IMG/VR virus record: IMGVR_UViG_3300036800_000168
Span: 1 to 58,088 of that record
Source of the DNA: a virus
Reading direction: 5' to 3' (one strand)
DNA length: 58,088 bases
The notes under the pieces are model-generated. The model did not search any database. It worked only from the letters and a program-made list of their open reading frames with translations, and was not told where the DNA came from. Below, in pieces: positions 1,872 through 50,382 of this stretch. The position numbers were made by a program, and so were the translations under genes. How positions within the stretch are numbered: position 1 is the stretch's first letter; each line of letters starts with the position of its first letter.

Positions 1872-2222
1872 TCATGTCAGCGATGTGGTGTCCGAGGAGA
1901 AAAGCGAGCTGAGCGCCCCGGCGGGAATGAGGCCGTACTCGGCGTCCGACAGCACCGTCACGTCCCCGGCCGTGTAGCGCAGGCCGTTGGGCAGCACCAC
2001 GTTGCCCAGGCCGTCGGCGATCGTCACCTGATGGCTCACGGTCCCTCCCAGGGAGCCGGTGGAAGTACCTCCGTCGCCCGCCGTGAGCAGTGTCTTCGCC
2101 CCGGCCGTCAGCAGCCCGAAGTCGTCGTCGGTGAGCGTGAGGGCGCTCCCCGCCGCGTACCGGATGCCGTCCGGCATGACGACCGGGCCGGTGCCGGAGT
2201 TGACGGTCAGGGCGTAGGTCAT
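1872..2222 (-). CDS. Two-copy repeat protein of the head operon, 116 aa
   Basis: The ATG at 2222 overlaps the stop of the giant protease gene (ATGA), so translation is probably coupled. The chain has two copies of one unit: VVMPDGIRYAAGSALTLTDD with FGLL in the N-terminal half, and VVLPNGLRYTAGDVTVLSD with YGLIPAG in the C-terminal half. Each unit reads as beta-strand, turn, beta-strand. Small duplicated beta proteins next to capsid genes are often decoration or accessory virion proteins; that role here is inferred from position only. Confidence 0.65.
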   Translation of the reverse strand: MTYALTVNSGTGPVVMPDGIRYAAGSALTLTDDDFGLLTAGAKTLLTAGDGGTSTGSLGGTVSHQVTIADGLGNVVLPNGLRYTAGDVTVLSDAEYGLIPAGALSSLFSSDTTSLT

Positions 2223-5200
2223 CAGTCGAACAGGTCCGAGGCGTCGAGGTCGTCGGTGACAGCCGGCGCGTACTGGGACGAGGCCCCCACCGACGCGAGC
2301 GACGGGACGGACCGGGACGCGGTGCGCTGCACCGGGCGTGCCGCCATCCGCTGATCGGTCACGGGCATGCGGGACAGGACCCCGATCTCGTGCTCGATGA
2401 CCGGGGTCGCCAGCGAGGCGTCGCGCTCGATCCGCTCAGCTACCGCCAGCTCGTCGCCCTGGGCGAGGCCCGCCAGCACCCGCAGCTTCGCCAGCCGGAT
2501 GGAGGCGAACGTGCGACGGGATGCGTCCGCCTCGCCGAGGGAGGCTGCCCGCTGGCCCTGCTGCGGCGACTGGCCGCCCTGCTGGCCACCCTGCTGGCCG
2601 GGGGCCTGCGCGTCGAGGATCCACGGGAAGGCCGAGCCGTTGTCGCCCTGGCCGCCGATCCCCGGGCCCTGCGCCTTCAGCGGGTCCGGGTCGATGCGGA
2701 CGTCGGTCTCGATCCGGCGCTGCTCCAGCGGCACCCCGCCGTCCTGCGACGGGTTGGTGCCCTGGACGGGGGCGGTCACGTCGATCAGGTTGGTCGCCGG
2801 GGGCGTCTGCATCTCCACGCCCGGGGTGATCGCGGTGGTGGTCTGCTGGGCGGGCACCCGTGAGTTCGCGCCCGGGGTCGTCCCGGGGCGCCCGGCGTTG
2901 TCCATGGTCTCCGGCTGGAGCGCCTGCTCGGTGGTCTCCGTCGGCGGGCCCTGCGGCGGGTCCGGCACGGGGCTCGCCGGGTTGAGGACGTCCGCGCGAC
3001 GCCGCATCACCCGCCGGCCGACCTCGGCCAGCTCGCGGTCGATCCCCGCAGCGGAGGCGAGGAACCGGAGCTGGGCCGAGAGGACCTCGTTCTGCGCGCT
3101 CAGCTCGGCGATCCGGTGCGCCTGGGCCTGCGCGAGAGCGGCGGCCGTCTTGCTTGCTGGCATGTCCTTGTCCTCTTCCTCGTCCTCTTCGTCCCCGGGC
3201 TCCTCGTCCGGGTCAGACGGGTCTTCTGCTCCTTCCGGGGGTACCGCCCCCGGGTCCTGCTCTTCCTCGTCCTCTTCGTCCCCGGGCTCCTCGTCCACCG
3301 GGTGGAGCGCGGCCATCCCGCAGGCAGGGCACGGGACCCCCGGCTGGGCGGCGGCGTCAGCCTCGAAGGTCGTCCCGCACGCGGGGCAGATCAGCTCCTC
3401 GGCGAACATCTCCTCGCCCTCGTCGCCCGTGTCCTCCATCTCGGCCTCGTCGGGCGGCACGTCGCCCACCGGGACGGCGCCCTCGGGATCCTCGGGGTCC
3501 TCCTCGCCCTCCGGCGGCAGCCCGTCGGTGTTCGCCGGGTCGTCGCCGCCCTGGACGGTCGGCACCCCGTCAGGGGCGATCTGGTCGGGGTGGACAAGCT
3601 GGTCGTCGGCGTCGTCCCCGCTGCCCATCTGCGCCTGGCCCTGGGCATCGGGCTGGCCAGCGTCCGGCTGGTCCGGCGGGACATCGACCTCGCCGGCGGA
3701 GTCGAGCTGCTCGCGCACTTCCTTCGCCTTGTCGGTGTCCGGGTCCCGGAAGACCGACGGGGGCACCACGAAGCCGCAGACAGGACAGCGGGAGCCGGAC
3801 CAGACATTGTGCTCGCCGCAGACGGGGCACTCGTCCATCCGGAGGGTGTCCACCTGCGGCGGCACCCGCGTCTCCCCGTACGCCTGCTTGCGCACCGACA
3901 TGGAGCTGCGCAGCCGGTCGCCGAGCGGGTCCCAGGGGCGCGAGTCCTGCACGGTCTCCCGTGCGCGGCCGGGGGTCATGTAGCCGGGCAGGCCGGTGTC
4001 GGCCCCGTGTCCCTGGACGCGGCCCGAGCAGTCCTGGCACATCATCGGCATGGACCGGCTGACTGGCTTCCCGCCCGGGTTGCCCGGGTGGGCGAGGGAT
4101 CCGCCGCACATCGCGCAGTGGGTACCGCCTACTGGCCACGGGGCCTGCGGCGGCGGCTGGTCCGTCGATCCGTGAACATGCATGTTCTCCTCCGGGATCT
4201 GGCCCGGGTGGTGCTCGTGGTGGTGCTCCACCCAGCGGCGGCGGCTGTTGTCGCCGAGCTGGACGCGCCCCTTGCCGCCCGCGCCCCTGGCGCCCGAGGA
4301 GTCCTCCTCGGTGTTCTTCCGGATCTGGCGCAGCCACGTGGCCGCCTGGACCTGGTGCGGGCTGATCTTCCGGCCGTGCTGCTCCGACAGGGTGCGCGCC
4401 GCCTCGCGGTAGGCGTCGGAGACGTGCTCGTAGTGCTGGGACTGGCCGACCGGCATCTTGTCCGTGTCGGCGTCGGTCAGCCGGCGCCCGGTGGCGACGG
4501 ACATGGCGTGCCGGTCGATGACGACCCGCTCGCGTCCGCTCTTCACGTCATCGGGGCTGTCGCCGCCGTGCTCGATCAGGTGCGCGAAGGCGGCCGTCTT
4601 CGGCGCGGTGAGGACCTTGGAGTGGTGCTCCCCGGCGAGAATGCGGATCGCCTTGCGCTGGTGGTCGCCGAGGGCGCCGCTGCCGGGTCCGGGCGGGTCC
4701 CCCTGGGCAGCGCGGCTGGCGTTGAACATGTTGACCGGCCACATCGTGCGGGGACTGTAGGCCGACAGCAGCCCGGCGCCGAGCGCGGAGTCTCCCTTGC
4801 CGATGACCTTGGCGACGTGGTGGGCGTCGGAGTACCAGCGGTCGCCCAGCGCCCGCTCGTCGTCGCTGGAGTCGTTGTAGGCGGCGGTGACGTGGTGCGC
4901 GGAGACCGGGTGGTTCATGAACCAGGGGTGGTCTCCGCCCTGCGCCTTCGCCCCGGTGGACCGGATGTAGTCGATGTCCTTGTCCGGGATGTCATCGACC
5001 GTGGGGTAGCTGTCGCTCCTCGACCTGTGAGTGTGCACGTAGAACCCGTTGCGGTCCTGCTTGAGGGCCACGCCGTCGAACTTCGGGTCCCGGCCGTAGC
5101 CGCGCACGGGCTTGTCCTTCGGCTTCTTCTTGCGGGCGGCGGTGAACGGGTCTGGGGGCATCTGCCTCTCGTCGCCGCGCGGCGCTCGCGGCAGCGGGCG

Positions 5201-6739
5201 GCCCTCAAGCTGCTCGAACAGGCCGTGCATGTGATCACTCATCTGCCTGCGGGCCTGCTCGCGGGCCGCCTTCTGGGCCGTGACCGAGTCGTATGCCCCC
5301 TGCTCGTCGGCCGGGACCGCAAGGTGGTCGCGCTTCATGCCGTCGCCGTGGTGAAAGCCGCCGCCGGGCTTGTCGAGGGCGTTCAGGTTGATGCTCACCG
5401 GGTCACCGCACACGAGGCAGTGGCCGGCGCTGAACGTCGGGTTCTGCGACGGCCGCTTGTCCGACGGGTCCGCAGGCAGCGCGTCGTGGTCCGCGAGGCT
5501 CTGGTGCCGGTGCTGCCACGGGTACCGGCCCCGCTTTCCCAGCCCGGCGGCGTAGTGCACCGGCTGCCCGCACGTAGTGCAGGTGTTGCCCAGGTGGTCC
5601 CGGAAGTCGGGGTCTCCTGCCGCTCCTGCGGTCCTGGGGTGCATCCTGACCGTGGGAATATGAGTAGCGCCGTCCCGCATGTACGAGTGCATCCGGTGGT
5701 ACCCGTCATCGACGTAGTTGGGGTTTTCGTCGTTGACGATCAGCGGCCAGCGATTGCCCTCGGGGTAGCGGGGAACCGGGTGCGTGGCCAGGGTCTCCTG
5801 GTGGTGCGCCTCCCAGTCGCCTGGCCCGTACTCCTTCTTGAACTCCTCGTCCGCGTCCATGTAGCGGTCCAGGAATTCGTCTTTCGGCTCCTGGCGCGAC
5901 TCGTAGAGGTAGTCGCGCGGCGCGCTGCCGGGAGGCGCGTTACCCTCTTCGACCATCTGCGGGTGGTACTGCGCCACTGACTGCTGCTCGTGCGGCTGGA
6001 GCTGGTCGAATGACCTGAGGGGGTCCCCGGCGGCCGTCTTCGCGGCGGCCTTCGCCATGCCCCGGGCGTCTGGCTCGCCGATCACGTAAGCCGTCGGGTC
6101 GGCGGGGTCCTCGACCAGCAGGGAGTTCTCGAAGAACGACAGGCCGGCGCAGACCTCGTGGATCAGCTTCTCCTCGACCTTGCCGGTGACCTTGTTGCGC
6201 TGCCGGATCTTCTTGCCCTTCAGCGCGGGCAGGTGCTTGCAGTACTCGGCGGGGCTGGTGGCCTTGTTGCCGCAGGCCGAGCAGGTGGACCAGTCCACGT
6301 CCACGCCCATCGAGGTGCGGTTGACCCGCCCTGCCAGGATCGCCTTGCACAGCTTCGGGAACCTGACCGCGTCAATCTCGTGCAGGCCCTCGACCCAGGT
6401 GTCGGGACTGCCGTCCGGGTTCCTGTCACGGTGCAGCGCGACGGCGACGATGACGCCACGGGCGCGGCGGTGGTTGGCGTTGTGGTGGTTGACGAAGGCC
6501 GGCTTGCCGAGGAAGGTCTTGTAGCCCTTTTCGATCTCGTCAGCCGGGAACGTGTCGTGGTTGTCGTTGGTCCGGCTGGAGATCATCCGGGCCCGGACGT
6601 ACAGGTAGCCCTGGCGCGGCTCGTAGTCGAACGCCACCCGGTGGGCAGCCTTGACGATCCTCCGGGCGCCGTTCCCCGGGTCACCGGGCGCAGCCTGACG
6701 CCAGGCCTCCAGCACCTCCAGCGACGCATACTTGCGCAC
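2222..6739 (-). CDS. Giant prohead protease/scaffold-like polyprotein with extra domains, 1505 aa
   Basis: The GTG start at 6739 follows GGGAGGG. Residues ~30-215 resemble T4-type prohead proteases of large phages: histidine cluster NHHNANH at 84-90, RTSMGVDVD at 141-149 (candidate nucleophile Ser143), then a CxxCG...C-x-H zinc-like insert at 153-169. After this come a ParB/sulfiredoxin-like segment (VDDGYHRMHSYMRDGATHIP, 343-362), cysteine pairs near 387/390 and 441/444, a 620-815 region with LLSAYSPRTMWPVN and VIDRHAMSVATG resembling phage domains with a possible helix-hairpin-helix glycosylase fold, more CxxC ribbons (875-904, 971-988), a strongly acidic stretch (~1010-1215), a coiled segment (~1215-1260) and a Pro/Gln-rich to helical tail. 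The acidic and helical C-terminal third fits a scaffold. It is far longer than ordinary prohead proteases. Protease and scaffold roles are inferred; the internal domains are tentative. Confidence 0.7.
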   Translation of the reverse strand: MRKYASLEVLEAWRQAAPGDPGNGARRIVKAAHRVAFDYEPRQGYLYVRARMISSRTNDNHDTFPADEIEKGYKTFLGKPAFVNHHNANHRRARGVIVAVALHRDRNPDGSPDTWVEGLHEIDAVRFPKLCKAILAGRVNRTSMGVDVDWSTCSACGNKATSPAEYCKHLPALKGKKIRQRNKVTGKVEEKLIHEVCAGLSFFENSLLVEDPADPTAYVIGEPDARGMAKAAAKTAAGDPLRSFDQLQPHEQQSVAQYHPQMVEEGNAPPGSAPRDYLYESRQEPKDEFLDRYMDADEEFKKEYGPGDWEAHHQETLATHPVPRYPEGNRWPLIVNDENPNYVDDGYHRMHSYMRDGATHIPTVRMHPRTAGAAGDPDFRDHLGNTCTTCGQPVHYAAGLGKRGRYPWQHRHQSLADHDALPADPSDKRPSQNPTFSAGHCLVCGDPVSINLNALDKPGGGFHHGDGMKRDHLAVPADEQGAYDSVTAQKAAREQARRQMSDHMHGLFEQLEGRPLPRAPRGDERQMPPDPFTAARKKKPKDKPVRGYGRDPKFDGVALKQDRNGFYVHTHRSRSDSYPTVDDIPDKDIDYIRSTGAKAQGGDHPWFMNHPVSAHHVTAAYNDSSDDERALGDRWYSDAHHVAKVIGKGDSALGAGLLSAYSPRTMWPVNMFNASRAAQGDPPGPGSGALGDHQRKAIRILAGEHHSKVLTAPKTAAFAHLIEHGGDSPDDVKSGRERVVIDRHAMSVATGRRLTDADTDKMPVGQSQHYEHVSDAYREAARTLSEQHGRKISPHQVQAATWLRQIRKNTEEDSSGARGAGGKGRVQLGDNSRRRWVEHHHEHHPGQIPEENMHVHGSTDQPPPQAPWPVGGTHCAMCGGSLAHPGNPGGKPVSRSMPMMCQDCSGRVQGHGADTGLPGYMTPGRARETVQDSRPWDPLGDRLRSSMSVRKQAYGETRVPPQVDTLRMDECPVCGEHNVWSGSRCPVCGFVVPPSVFRDPDTDKAKEVREQLDSAGEVDVPPDQPDAGQPDAQGQAQMGSGDDADDQLVHPDQIAPDGVPTVQGGDDPANTDGLPPEGEEDPEDPEGAVPVGDVPPDEAEMEDTGDEGEEMFAEELICPACGTTFEADAAAQPGVPCPACGMAALHPVDEEPGDEEDEEEQDPGAVPPEGAEDPSDPDEEPGDEEDEEEDKDMPASKTAAALAQAQAHRIAELSAQNEVLSAQLRFLASAAGIDRELAEVGRRVMRRRADVLNPASPVPDPPQGPPTETTEQALQPETMDNAGRPGTTPGANSRVPAQQTTTAITPGVEMQTPPATNLIDVTAPVQGTNPSQDGGVPLEQRRIETDVRIDPDPLKAQGPGIGGQGDNGSAFPWILDAQAPGQQGGQQGGQSPQQGQRAASLGEADASRRTFASIRLAKLRVLAGLAQGDELAVAERIERDASLATPVIEHEIGVLSRMPVTDQRMAARPVQRTASRSVPSLASVGASSQYAPAVTDDLDASDLFD

Positions 6740-14266: not shown

Positions 14267-16468
14267 TCAGCAGGTGACCTGCGTGAAGGTGACGTCGGCG
14301 CTGGTGAACGTCATCTTGACGTACCATCCCTTCGGCACCAGGACGCTGTAAAGGTTGGTTATGGGGGCGGTAGCGCTCGCCACGATGGTGTTAGCCGCAG
14401 AGGACGTCGGCCCCATCGCCAGGGAGAAGGTCGCCGTTGCCGTGTGAGTGTTGACGTAGAGCATCACGTCCTGCACGGTGCTCAACTGCTTCGCGGTACC
14501 GGAGGTGAACGTCGGCGTGCTGGCTGTCGCGGTGCCGCTGGTGTCGGTGCCGCCGTTGACCGGCAGCACCGACTGGACGGCGCCGTTGAGCAGGGTGGCG
14601 GTCCCTGCCAGTGAAGCCCCCGGCGCGAGGAGGCCCTGCTCGGTGCCGTCGGTGGCAAGCGTGATGTTAGACCTGGACGACCCGGTGGCGTACAGGCCGT
14701 AGGCGATGCCGCCGAAGGTGGACAGGGCAATGTCAATGTTGCAGCCGTTGATGCCGTTGAGGTAGACCGCCGAGTAGCCGTTCGGGTTGCTGGTGTTCTG
14801 GAGCCCGGTACCGGGATTGTCAAAATTAACGGTCGCGCCGATGCCGCTGATCGTGCAGCCGGCGCAGCCGTTGAGCCAGTAGGAGCCGATCGACGGCTCC
14901 TGGGAGTCCAGTCCGGTCCAGGCCGACCCGGAGGCCAGGCCGTCGAAGGCGTAGTCCCAGCCCCACACCTGCGGCGACGTCGCCGCGTTCAGCGGCAGCC
15001 AGTGGGCCGCGTCTGAGGACGGCACGGTGGAGCCGGTGACGGAGGCGAGGCAGTAGTACATCGTCCCCGCGTAGGCAATGCACACGCCGGCCGTGTAGGC
15101 GGTCCCGGACACCCACGCCGGGGTGGGGGCCGACCAGTGGGAGGCGTCCGAGGACGGGGCGGTGGTGCCGGTGACGGAGGCGGTGCAGATGTACGTCCCG
15201 GTGCCGGAGGTGACGACGTTGCCGACGGCATAGGACGTGCCGGACACCCACGCGCCGTCGGCGCTGACCAGGGCAACCCAGTGGGTCCCGTCGGAGCTGG
15301 GGGCGGTCGTGCCGGAGTTGGCCGAGATGCAGAAGTAGAGGTTGCCTCCGTACACGGCCCCGTTCCCGGCCGACCATGCCTGCCCCGAGGTCCACACGGG
15401 GTTGCACCCGTTGTTGTAGCTCTTGATGGACGCGCCGTTGGTCGCGCCGTGGTCCACGTAGACGCCGGCGACCCCGTTGAACCCGAGGTTGCAGTTGGCG
15501 AAGAGGGTGTCGAACGAGCTAGTTGCCCCGTTGCCCCGGCACGCCTCCACCCAGACGTTGGTCAGGGTGCACGCCGACCGGCCGGAGTGGAAGTAGCCGT
15601 CCCCGGTGCAGGCCTGGACGTAGACGTCATCGAAGACGTGCGACGGGTCGAACGCAGGGTCTGATCCTGCCTGTGACGTGGATGGATTAGTGGTGACGTT
15701 GATCCCGTGAGAGTAGCTGGGGATCGTCGTGTAGTACGAGTTCCCGTGGATGCCCAGGGACTTGACCCCGCTGTAGAAAGCGTTGACCAGGTCGGCCTGG
15801 GCGGGGGCCGACCCTCCCACTGTCGCCGCGAGGATCGCCGCCTGGGACGCCGAGTTGTAAATCTCCATCTGGATGACGTCAGCGGCGACTGCCGTTGCCA
15901 TGGTGATCATCGTCACGTTCCGCCCGGCACCCCGGAGGATGACGCCCGGCGGGATGATCAGCGTGTTCGAGATGTGGAAGCTTCCCGGCCCAAGGTCGAC
16001 AATGCCGCCTTCTCCCTGGAGCCACCCGGTCGCGGTGCCGAAGCTGAGCAGCGCCATCTGGATGGCTGTCGTCGAGTCAGCGCCGCCGGTCGGGTCCGCG
16101 CCGAACCTGGTCACGGCGTTCACCGATTCGCCCGAGGACTGGCCGAGCCCCTCAAGGGACGCTGCGGTGGTCACGTTCTGGACGGTGAACCCGCCGACGT
16201 GGACGACCGGGGTGGTGCCCTCCGTGCCCCGGGTCACCGTCCAGGTGGTCCCGCTGACGTTGGTGACGATCATCTTCTCGCCCGACGTACCGGGGTTCAC
16301 GTCGGTGACCCGGAAGAACGTCGGCGTGGAGGCGGACGAGGTGGCCGCCGGGAACGCGGTGGACGACGCGACCGTCCACGTCTCGGACGTCCCGGACGCC
16401 GGCGCGGTGGTGCCGCCGCTGCTGACAGTCGTCTGCGCCTGGTTGGCGAAAAGTTCAAGGCCGGCCAA
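14267..16468 (-). CDS. Beta-helix tail fibre/tailspike with three carbohydrate-binding-like repeats, 733 aa
   Basis: TTG start at 16468, supported by GGAGGATCCC. The N-terminal ~110 residues are a Thr/Ser-rich beta domain as in fibre attachment regions. VTRFGADPTGGADSTTAIQ at 119-137 is the typical entry of the pectate-lyase-like right-handed beta-helix; short strand/Gly/Asn turns follow to ~350. Three tandem ~45-residue units then occur (each with W-x-S/A-G, a Tyr/Cys strand near YxC, and a PSSDxxHW end), resembling chitin/cellulose-binding CBM5/12 modules. The beta-helix resumes and a ~90-residue beta C-terminal domain ends the chain. Likely role: binding or degrading a cell-surface polysaccharide. 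Enzyme activity cannot be judged from the sequence alone. Confidence 0.8.
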   Translation of the reverse strand: MAGLELFANQAQTTVSSGGTTAPASGTSETWTVASSTAFPAATSSASTPTFFRVTDVNPGTSGEKMIVTNVSGTTWTVTRGTEGTTPVVHVGGFTVQNVTTAASLEGLGQSSGESVNAVTRFGADPTGGADSTTAIQMALLSFGTATGWLQGEGGIVDLGPGSFHISNTLIIPPGVILRGAGRNVTMITMATAVAADVIQMEIYNSASQAAILAATVGGSAPAQADLVNAFYSGVKSLGIHGNSYYTTIPSYSHGINVTTNPSTSQAGSDPAFDPSHVFDDVYVQACTGDGYFHSGRSACTLTNVWVEACRGNGATSSFDTLFANCNLGFNGVAGVYVDHGATNGASIKSYNNGCNPVWTSGQAWSAGNGAVYGGNLYFCISANSGTTAPSSDGTHWVALVSADGAWVSGTSYAVGNVVTSGTGTYICTASVTGTTAPSSDASHWSAPTPAWVSGTAYTAGVCIAYAGTMYYCLASVTGSTVPSSDAAHWLPLNAATSPQVWGWDYAFDGLASGSAWTGLDSQEPSIGSYWLNGCAGCTISGIGATVNFDNPGTGLQNTSNPNGYSAVYLNGINGCNIDIALSTFGGIAYGLYATGSSRSNITLATDGTEQGLLAPGASLAGTATLLNGAVQSVLPVNGGTDTSGTATASTPTFTSGTAKQLSTVQDVMLYVNTHTATATFSLAMGPTSSAANTIVASATAPITNLYSVLVPKGWYVKMTFTSADVTFTQVTC

Positions 16469-40875: not shown

Positions 40876-41085
40876 ATGGACTACAGGCACGCGGACAACC
40901 CGGTGCCGTTCTCGTCTTACCCGGACGAGGCGCACCGGGCGGCGCTCCACAGCCACGTGCACATCGGCCTCACGGGCGAACACGCCCACGTTCATACCCA
41001 CGGCGACATGGAGCACGGCGGAATCGAGCACTCCCATATGCACGTGCACGCGGGTACCGAGGGCAATGAGGAGGAAGAACAGTGA
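40876..41085 (+). CDS. Histidine-rich small protein, 69 aa
   Basis: ATG 40876 with AGGAGAGGCGG upstream. His makes up about a fifth of the residues (HSHVHIGLTGEHAHVHTHGD, IEHSHMHVHAG), with an acidic tail. It could buffer or bind metal ions such as Ni, Zn or Co. Function in the phage unknown. A 105-base gap upstream holds no clear gene. Confidence 0.6.
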   Translation: MDYRHADNPVPFSSYPDEAHRAALHSHVHIGLTGEHAHVHTHGDMEHGGIEHSHMHVHAGTEGNEEEEQ

Positions 41086-47318: not shown

Positions 47319-48245
47319 ATGACGCAGACCATGGGGCCCGCCGAGTTCGATGCCGCCGAGCTGGGCCTGATGCAGGAGCTGGCCAAGTGCGAAGCCGAGC
47401 TGGACCAGGTTATCGCCGCCGCCCACCGCCAGGCCGGAGACACCCGGAGCTACAGCGGGTGGGGCCGCAACCGGGTAGTGAGCTGGCAGCTCACCGACGA
47501 CGAGGCCATACAGCGGTCCGGTGCAGCCGAGCGGGTTGCAAACGCCAGTTACCGGATCTCCAGCTTCCGGACTCACATCGATGACATGGAAGCCGTTTAC
47601 CGCGCCGCCCCCTGGACCCGCTGGTACCCGTGCCTCAACGCCGACGGGCACATCCACTCCGACGACCGGGCCTGCCCCACCCTGCACCGCAACAGCCAGC
47701 AGACCCTGATGGGCTGGGAGACGCGCCTGTCCGGCCAGCCGGTCGAGGTCGTCATCGCGGACCTCGGCCCGCGCCTGTGCAGCGTGTGCTTCCCCGGTGC
47801 CCCCGCTGAGCACTGCCAGTCGCTCAGCGATATCACCCGTGCCGACCGGGATGCCGCAAGGGCAGCGAAGAACGCCGCCCGGGACGCCGCCCTCGCCGTC
47901 AAGAACCTGACCGGGCCGTTCATCACCCACGACGGCGACCGGATCACCACCGTGGCCGCCCTCAAGGCCGTCGTGCGCAAGCCGGCCGAGACCGTCGTCG
48001 AGATCGAGTACTACAAGACCAGCGAGGATGCCAGCGAGGCGTACAAGGACATGCCCGAGCGGCTGGCCGAGTACATCGCCCGCGCCGAGGCCCGGCTGGA
48101 GGGCGAGAAGGCCGACATGAACCGGGCCTGCGAGATCCTGGCCGCCCGCGAGGCCGCCGCCCCCGGCAGCGGCTGGAGCCAGGCGGACATCGACAAGGCG
48201 GTCGCCGCCGCCGTCAAGCGCACCCGCAAGGCCTACTTCGGCTAG
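47319..48245 (+). CDS. Actinophage-type protein with central Cys/His region, 308 aa
   Basis: ATG 47319 with GAGGAG upstream. N-terminal coil (LMQELAKCEAELDQVIAAAH), then a middle part TRWYPCLNADGHIHSDDRAC with PTLHRN, and LCSVCFPGAP (Cys/His positions suited to zinc), then a helical C-terminal half with an Ala-rich coiled segment (RDAARAAKNAARDAALAVKN). Similar proteins are common in actinophages and their function is unknown. It is a single-gene operon between a promoter element and a terminator. Confidence 0.65.
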   Translation: MTQTMGPAEFDAAELGLMQELAKCEAELDQVIAAAHRQAGDTRSYSGWGRNRVVSWQLTDDEAIQRSGAAERVANASYRISSFRTHIDDMEAVYRAAPWTRWYPCLNADGHIHSDDRACPTLHRNSQQTLMGWETRLSGQPVEVVIADLGPRLCSVCFPGAPAEHCQSLSDITRADRDAARAAKNAARDAALAVKNLTGPFITHDGDRITTVAALKAVVRKPAETVVEIEYYKTSEDASEAYKDMPERLAEYIARAEARLEGEKADMNRACEILAAREAAAPGSGWSQADIDKAVAAAVKRTRKAYFG

Positions 48246-48301: not shown

Positions 48302-48322
48302 TATCAAGAAAACCTGTATCAT
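48302..48322 (+). promoter_or_regulatory. Shared element, copy 11, reversed, with promoter
   Basis: TATCAAGAAAACCTGTATC (48302-48320) is the reversed element; TATCAT (48317-48322) is the -10 box. The ATG at 48321 would lie inside the -10 box, so the gene must start at ATG 48333; transcription would begin near 48329-48330, giving only a 3-4-base leader. Confidence 0.7.
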
Positions 48323-48332
48323 GAGAGGGATC

Positions 48333-48653
48333 ATGAGCGACCACTACCACCACGCCAGCGAAGTCCAGGGCGCAGCCGACGACCACCACAGTCACAGCGC
48401 GCGTGACATCGGCGCGGCCGAGGAGCACGACCTGAACATGCTCGAACGGCGCGTCCAGACCCTGGAGCAGGACGTCAACGCGCTGGAGCGGGACAAGGCA
48501 GCCCGGGACCGGAGAATCTCTGACCTCCAGGGCGACGTGCTCACCGCCAGCAGCTCAATCGCCCAGCTCCAGGGCCGGCTACTCGAAGTAGCCGATCAGT
48601 TCAACAGCTTCGTAAGACTCGTCGAGAACGCTATCAATCAAGGGAGTCTCTAA
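48333..48653 (+). CDS. His-rich coiled-coil protein, 106 aa
   Basis: ATG 48333, chosen because the upstream ATG falls inside the -10 box. Begins SDHYHHASEV and ADDHHSHSAR (His-rich), then a long heptad coil (LERRVQTLEQDVNALERDKA, ISDLQGDVLTASSSIAQLQG). Its stop overlaps the ATG of a membrane-protein gene (TAATG). It may form a rod attached to that membrane neighbour; unproven. Confidence 0.6.
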   Translation: MSDHYHHASEVQGAADDHHSHSARDIGAAEEHDLNMLERRVQTLEQDVNALERDKAARDRRISDLQGDVLTASSSIAQLQGRLLEVADQFNSFVRLVENAINQGSL

Positions 48654-48820
48654 TGCCAGGATGGATTCCGCGCTGGCACCCGTTCGTGTGGGCGTTCGTC
48701 ATCATCATGATCTACATGATCTGGACGGACCCGGCCACCTGGGGCCACAAGGCCGCCGGCCTACTTCACCTGATCCCCGAGGCGGCCAACCGCGTCGGGA
48801 TCTTCGCCCAGAACCTGTAG
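48653..48820 (+). CDS. Small membrane protein, 55 aa
   Basis: ATG 48653. One strong transmembrane helix (residues ~11-24, FVWAFVIIMIYMIW), followed by a short amphipathic tail (LLHLIPEAANRVGIF). It sits between the coiled-coil gene and the membrane-anchored HNH gene. A holin-like or superinfection-related role is conceivable. Confidence 0.6.
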   Translation: MPGWIPRWHPFVWAFVIIMIYMIWTDPATWGHKAAGLLHLIPEAANRVGIFAQNL

Positions 48821-48822
48821 CC

Positions 48823-49410
48823 GTGACGACGAGCAGTGCCGCCAGGCACCGCGCTCCCGCGCGCACCCTCGGCCGCTGGGCGCTGCCCGGGGTACTCGCG
48901 TTCTTCGCCTGGCTGGCGGAGAACACCCCCGGCGGCGTGCTGGGCTTCGCCGGCCTGATCGCCACCGGGCTACTGGTCAGCCTCTTCTACCCGCTGGTCG
49001 TCCTCATGGCGATCGAGGCCCCGGGCGGCCTGGTGCCGTGCTCCTGGCGCACCTGGTGGCGCAGGGGCCAGGAACGCCGCCCGGCTATCAGCAAGCGGCT
49101 GCGGAGGATCGTCTACGCGGCCGACAGGCACATGTGCTGCCTGTCGTGGTGCCGCAGCAGCGCCGACCTCAACCTCGACCACGTGCGCCCCTGGTCGCTC
49201 GGCGGGCGCACGTCGTTCTGGAACTTCTGCACCCTGTGCGGCCACCATAACCGGGTGAAGTCGAATTACTGGGCATTCAAGGGCGGGCGCTATACCTACC
49301 GCCCGTTCGAGGGTTACGGCAATGCCCGCGAGGCTGCCGCGATCCTCGCCTTCGAGCTGCGGTACCGCCGGAGCCTCTGGCGGTTCATCCGCGCGGCGAT
49401 CTCCCTGTAG
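48823..49410 (+). CDS. Membrane-anchored HNH-type nuclease, 195 aa
   Basis: GTG 48823. Two transmembrane helices (residues ~18-33 and ~38-64) precede a soluble C-terminal domain with HNH features: CCLSWCRSSADLNLDHVRPW (Cys pair, His120), then WNFCTLCGHHNRVKSNYW with a CxxC pair and the His/Asn of the third motif. HNH nucleases are usually soluble; a membrane anchor would place the nuclease at the cell envelope, where incoming DNA enters. Hypothesis: defence against superinfecting phage DNA or degradation of host DNA at the membrane. Nicking activity cannot be inferred. Confidence 0.65.
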   Translation: MTTSSAARHRAPARTLGRWALPGVLAFFAWLAENTPGGVLGFAGLIATGLLVSLFYPLVVLMAIEAPGGLVPCSWRTWWRRGQERRPAISKRLRRIVYAADRHMCCLSWCRSSADLNLDHVRPWSLGGRTSFWNFCTLCGHHNRVKSNYWAFKGGRYTYRPFEGYGNAREAAAILAFELRYRRSLWRFIRAAISL

Positions 49411-49509: not shown

Positions 49510-50382
49510 ATGAAGCTGAACCGCAGGGGCATTCTGGGCCTCGCGGCACTGGCGCTTGCCGTAGCGGCCGGAGGCACTGCCTTCGCCGCTACGAGCCAGC
49601 CTGGCGCCGCCCACGTCCAGTACGCGAAGGGCGTAGCCAACGGAGCTGGTGCTTCAGCCGCCTACAACGCCGGGACCTGGACGCTCGACTCAGGTCACGG
49701 TACCGGCGGCAGCGCCCAGGTTGACCTCGTGAAGCCTGGTACGGCCACGATCGCGCCGACGTTCACCGCCGACCACGAGGGCGCTGGCAACCCGCGCTGG
49801 GTCATCGAGTTCCACAACGGCGACTACATCTTCGGGTACCCCGCCTCCGGAGCGGGCCAGGGCGTCTCCACCTGGACGCTGGAGCCCAGCGGTAAGGCCG
49901 AGGCGAGCTACGCTGCGGCGCTGGCCGACGCTCAGGCCGGCGGCTCTGACGACCAGGTGACGGCCGCCTTCATCGTGAACGACACCGGGACCACGGACAC
50001 CACGGTCAACCTCACCGACGTGACGTATAACGGCAACGAAGTCGTTCCGCAGCCCGTGATCCCGTACGTCTACGCCGGCCACGTCGTGAACGTCACCTCG
50101 CACACGGCCGTAGTCGGCTGGTCGGAGTCGGCCAAGGGCTGGCCGTCGGACAACCACTGCGTCGAGGTCTACATGTACGGGTTCGACACCCCGGCGGGCA
50201 CCGCCCACGTGGGCTTCACCTGCGACAACGGCAACCGCGCGGCTGACCTCGGGTACATGACGAACCTGCCGGCGGGCCACAGCGTCTCGCTGTTCATCCG
50301 CCCGGCGGTCGGCACCTACGCCAGCCACCACCCGATCGCGGGCACGGACGCCAAGGCGCACGTCTACGTCGTGACCCCGTAG
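49510..50382 (+). CDS. Secreted protein with Sec signal peptide, 290 aa
   Basis: ATG 49510. Residues 1-26 form a signal peptide: basic MKLNRRG, hydrophobic ILGLAALALAVAAGG, and an AxA-type cleavage site (AFA|AT). The mature part (~264 residues) is a Thr/Gly/Val-rich beta protein with YNGNEVVPQPVIPYVYAGHV and two cysteines (HCVEVYMYGF; FTCDNGN) that could form a disulfide. Exported phage proteins can exclude competing phages or alter the host surface; here the role is unknown. Single-gene unit, followed by the terminator at 50398. Confidence 0.75.
   Translation: MKLNRRGILGLAALALAVAAGGTAFAATSQPGAAHVQYAKGVANGAGASAAYNAGTWTLDSGHGTGGSAQVDLVKPGTATIAPTFTADHEGAGNPRWVIEFHNGDYIFGYPASGAGQGVSTWTLEPSGKAEASYAAALADAQAGGSDDQVTAAFIVNDTGTTDTTVNLTDVTYNGNEVVPQPVIPYVYAGHVVNVTSHTAVVGWSESAKGWPSDNHCVEVYMYGFDTPAGTAHVGFTCDNGNRAADLGYMTNLPAGHSVSLFIRPAVGTYASHHPIAGTDAKAHVYVVTP

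Follow-up and report, generated by a model that had tools for sequence, protein, structure and literature searches.

A conserved phage operon pairing a predicted membrane-anchored HNH nuclease with a one-helix protein: a candidate superinfection exclusion system

The window analysed here is the entire 58,088-nucleotide stretch of the IMG/VR virus record IMGVR_UViG_3300036800_000168, and at positions 48333-49410 it carries an operon in which a coiled-coil gene is followed by a gene for a 55-residue one-helix protein and, last, by an HNH nuclease gene (Table 1). The 55-residue gene overlaps the coiled-coil stop codon by 1 nt (a junction of -1 nt) and the nuclease gene starts 2 nt past the stop of the 55-residue gene, so that, together with a gene order that recurs in relatives (see below), the proposal in a first-pass annotation that both small proteins share an operon with the nuclease is borne out. 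The coiled-coil protein begins with a His-rich repeat (HxH...GAA) that leads into the coiled coil, and its gene has a possible alternative start at 48321. By eye, this repeat of ~15 residues (48333-48440) resembles the metal-binding His repeats of phage tail fibres, and a weak tail-needle PHROG match (E 4e-4) was also seen; we drew no evidence from this match or from those of the coiled-coil protein to XhlA and SMC. Elsewhere in the window (40876-41085) lies another small, very His-rich protein (HSHVH...HAHVHTH...HSHMHVH).

Table 1. Features at and around the operon (window coordinates).
Feature	Position	Strand	Description	Basis
phrog_15500-like protein	47319..48245	+	upstream neighbour; synteny marker	PHROGs match
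Repeated leader element ATACAGGTTTTCTTGATA	48302..48319	-	inverted here, directly before the operon	
Coiled-coil protein	48333..48653	+	106 aa	frame GC; homologues in L002, L007, L008, L038
55-aa membrane protein	48653..48820	+	one N-terminal helix, [DN]P turn, amphipathic C-terminal helix	
Membrane-anchored HNH nuclease (predicted)	48823..49410	+	195 aa, GTG start	Pfam HNH, PHROGs HNH, conservation, AlphaFold2
Downstream gene	49510..50382	+	signal-peptide-like N-terminus, poorly conserved body	alignment of five copies

We compared the window with five contigs recovered by IMG/VR scans, L002 (161.7 kb), L007 (67.7 kb), L008 (162.4 kb), L011 (120.3 kb) and L038 (165.1 kb), giving a set of six sequences, all metagenomic. 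The phages are uncultured myoviruses of ~160 kb, probably of soil actinobacteria, the host assignment resting on high GC and on portal similarity, as the portal of the window shares 36-38% identity with its counterparts in Rhodococcus phage Finch and in Bxz1-type Mycobacterium phages. In the inventory of G003 (the contig of L008), a tail sheath and a baseplate, together with PolIII alpha, primase and helicase, mark a myovirus that encodes replication genes of its own; one of the 50 scanned G003 proteins matches the Arr-ms rifampin ADP-ribosyltransferase (E 2e-7). On the minus strand of the window we also observed a 1505-aa fusion (2222-6739) that combines head-maturation-protease-like and DUF7178 regions, and a tail-like protein (14267-16468) whose pectate-lyase-like and CBM_5_12 chitin-binding domains hint at a polysaccharide receptor.

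The leader element directly before the operon reads TATCAAGAAAACCTGTATCATG on the plus strand and carries a TATCAT/TATAAT -10-like hexamer. The window holds 13 copies of the ATACAGNTTTTCTTGATA element against 0 expected by chance, located in gene leaders in both orientations (sites include 6797, 12397, 26169, 47264, 48302 and 50454), and the element is likewise found genome-wide in G003; it is probably a family of phage promoters or operators. Ahead of the operon, its plus-strand form TATCAAGAAAACCTGTATMATG is identical in the window, L002, L007, L008 and L011, with a single occurrence in the 160 kb of G003 examined; no copy was found ahead of the L038 operon. Homologues of the phrog_15500-like gene adjoin the operon in L002, L008, L011 and L038. 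On the other side, the downstream gene is probably a neighbour outside the operon, because it has its own separate leader. Its product diverges fast (relatives' copies are 25-29% identical to that of the window in the five-copy alignment) but, in the five contigs where it adjoins the operon, keeps an N-terminus that is signal-peptide-like (MKLNRRG...AFAATS).

Wherever the nuclease was found, namely in all six contigs, the one-helix gene precedes it in the same order, and the same arrangement in five further diverged contigs excludes a chance juxtaposition. The junction between these two genes measures -4 to +12 nt throughout, and the one-helix counterparts, 54-58 aa long and at the equivalent place, are 21-84% identical among the first five, too variable an alignment to serve as a scan profile. 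The coiled-coil gene is present in four of the five relatives (L002, L007, L008 and L038) and its junction with the one-helix gene spans -4 to 0 nt in four of the five contigs that have it, and 34 nt in L038. In L011 the coiled-coil gene is absent, a short leader ORF alone remaining at its place; this gene is thus dispensable, while the pair of one-helix protein and nuclease is constant. At the GC of these sequences dN/dS was uninformative. A tblastn search of INPHARED (50,697 phage records) returned nothing comparable, with weak HNH-domain matches for the nuclease, one weak match for the coiled-coil protein and none for the 55-residue protein. A single scan of a genome collection matched only a soluble Corynebacterium HNH protein, which is unrelated, and prophiGD02-2 gp35 was dismissed as a comparable protein for want of a TM helix.

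The nuclease had originally been delimited as a 249-aa ORF from 48661, with two helices ahead of the HNH domain. The helices stand, being predicted in the window nuclease and conserved, but the start does not: the first 54 codons of that ORF overlap the 55-residue gene in another frame and the relatives start at the equivalent of GTG 48823, identifying the longer ORF as a mechanical artefact. The 195-aa protein comprises an Arg-rich N-tail, a helical hairpin (about residues 19-33 and 38-63), a predicted WRxWW cytosolic interface, the HNH domain (about 101-150) and two C-terminal helices. It matches PF01844 (HNH) at E=1.2e-4, exceeding the Pfam curated cut-off, and a PHROGs search likewise gave an HNH match; Pfam matched HNH in all six nucleases, with E-values as good as 2.3e-10 among the relatives. 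Identity to the window copy is 86, 68, 56 and 52% in four contigs, L038 being the most divergent. As the first-pass annotation had staked its reading on conserved catalytic residues, it is pertinent that D119-H120, N134, N143 and K146 (the DH...N...[HN]xxK motif) are invariant in all six sequences. All six also keep the zinc ligands, as CxxC plus CxxC in four and as CxxxC plus CxxH in the window and L002 (in the window, one Cys is replaced by His). With the HNH endonuclease motif and zinc knuckles in place, DNA cleavage is the predicted activity. No DNA- or tail-binding domain was recognised, and PADLOC assigned no known defence family beyond the HNH domain and no ZorA/B match to the partners, the PADLOC and NCBIfam matches having been set aside as generic HNH or coiled-coil cross-matches.

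The helical hairpin ahead of the HNH domain persists at identities as low as about 50%. Across the nuclease sequences the N-tail carries a charge of +3 to +7, the loop 0 to -2 and the segment after TM2 a net +3 to +8, and because of this pattern the positive-inside rule predicts that both ends are cytoplasmic (N-in/C-in) and that the nuclease domain faces the cytoplasm. A soluble domain outside the cell, which would have spoken against the original proposal, is thus not what is predicted in silico. Two AlphaFold2 models show a hairpin, an HNH-like core and two C-terminal helices, and given their middling confidence (mean pLDDT 67 and 71) we used the overall plan alone; fold searches gave weak HNH-domain matches only, none significant. 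Helix 1 is short and just moderately hydrophobic, so it may be re-entrant or interfacial, in which case the protein would still be anchored, with a topology that need not be the same.

Taking together the operon, the HNH and zinc residues, the hairpin and the gene order, all of which are read from the sequences, we tentatively favour the view that the operon encodes a membrane-tethered DNA-entry nuclease that acts in superinfection exclusion. During the lytic cycle, the phage would make a zinc-stabilised HNH nuclease that its N-in/C-in hairpin holds at the cytoplasmic face of the inner membrane. Its most likely partner in the membrane is the one-helix protein, which would be co-translated with it; the His-rich coiled-coil protein, which one relative has lost, may act as an accessory sensor or scaffold. 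The tether would keep the nuclease off bulk DNA and at the site where the DNA of a second phage enters, such that incoming rival DNA would be nicked or cut. We rate DNA-entry cleavage as the most likely reading because the operon shares the plan of SNIPE, a single-TM nuclease of E. coli that cuts phage DNA during injection (Saxton et al. 2026, PMC13190303), with another nuclease and separate partners. With this mechanistic precedent by analogy, the earlier suggestion of superinfection exclusion is plausible. Several points count against it: neither a DNA- or tail-binding domain nor a defence family other than HNH was recognised, helix 1 is weak, the structural evidence is of middling confidence, and the phage would have to spare its own DNA while that DNA replicates.

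The main rival to cleavage at DNA entry is degradation of host DNA at the membrane, whereby the tethered nuclease would degrade or nick the host chromosome early for shut-off and nucleotide recycling, under the control of the small proteins. Host DNA is often degraded by lytic phages, and these phages are large, encode their own PolIII alpha, primase and helicase, and gave no Phage_integrase (tyrosine integrase) match in five contigs, all in keeping with such a role. A tether is nevertheless a poor design for digesting a whole nucleoid, and that of SNIPE protects host DNA (PMC13190303), and we hold host-DNA degradation to be the less likely of the two. Less probable again is a self-directed role, in which the system would process the phage's own DNA, or attach it to the membrane, for replication, packaging or injection. 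HNH proteins do aid packaging in several phages, there next to the terminase, whereas the operon sits outside the structural block, in a separate non-structural gene block and not beside terminase or portal.

Free-standing phage HNH genes are often homing enzymes, and three other HNH matches occur in G001, so that the nuclease might be a homing endonuclease carrying hydrophobic helices by happenstance. However, its position, neighbours and partner gene are constant across six diverged contigs, and such conserved synteny speaks against a homing enzyme that roams, as do the conserved hairpin and the tightly coupled partner, and no intron or intein was seen. No phage lacking the gene at this locus was found in which an empty site could be looked for. 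We consider homing very improbable, and give equally little credence to a lysis role for the operon, in which the one-helix protein would be a holin or antiholin. That protein is indeed small, and sub-threshold matches to GTA_holin_3TM (E 0.12 and 0.06) and XhlA (E 0.004) were recorded, but the XhlA match falls on the coiled coil, which has no helix of its own, and the GH25 endolysin lies at least 50 kb from the operon in three contigs (51 kb in G003, where it matches phrog_3084 at E 6e-29, and about 56 kb in G001) and far from it in L038. No Amidase_2 match was obtained.

Returning to the DNA-entry nuclease, small phage membrane proteins of superinfection exclusion, such as HK97 gp15 and T4 Imm, block injection at DNA entry and, unlike the operon, to our knowledge carry no nuclease. 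A literature search for membrane-anchored HNH proteins under the phrases tried found none. A second, unrelated TM-anchored HNH gene of a phage, annotated just as an HNH endonuclease, is gp29 of the Mycobacterium abscessus prophage prophiGD13-2 (L004:3416-4444), which likewise joins an N-terminal TM to a C-terminal HNH domain but has a single TM (residues 29-51), 342 aa, an unrelated middle, similarity confined to the HNH and no recognised matching partner genes. Zorya type II (ZorAB plus ZorE) also combines an HNH nuclease with a membrane protein, there in a complex, yet the nuclease of that system, ZorE, is a soluble nickase that the MotAB-like ZorAB motor recruits (PMC11890865), and no motor is found here. 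By domain content the operon is excluded from both Zorya and SNIPE, as the ZorA/ZorB motor, GIY-YIG and DUF4041 are all missing and, in the window as in the relatives, HNH matches alone were obtained.

SNIPE nonetheless offers the closest plan, in which an N-terminal helix anchors the nuclease in the inner membrane and the catalytic domain is cytoplasmic (as predicted here), and 7% of its homologues have two TM helices (PMC13190303). SNIPE lacking its TM is toxic, the anchor protecting the host chromosome, and bacteria thereby tell phage DNA from their own by its entry site (PMC13190303). A fuller version of our reading, somewhat more doubtful than DNA-entry cleavage as such, is that a three-part HNH membrane system (one-helix partner, coiled-coil sensor and hairpin-anchored nuclease) destroys rival phage DNA at entry as a convergent viral counterpart of SNIPE. 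If true, it would provide an operon small enough to test readily and would assign a role to HNH genes that otherwise lack annotation, and the SNIPE principle would have arisen independently in a phage version used between competing viruses: whereas SNIPE is a bacterial defence gene that unites GIY-YIG and DUF4041 in one protein, the operon is phage-encoded, relies on HNH without DUF4041 and adds two small partners.
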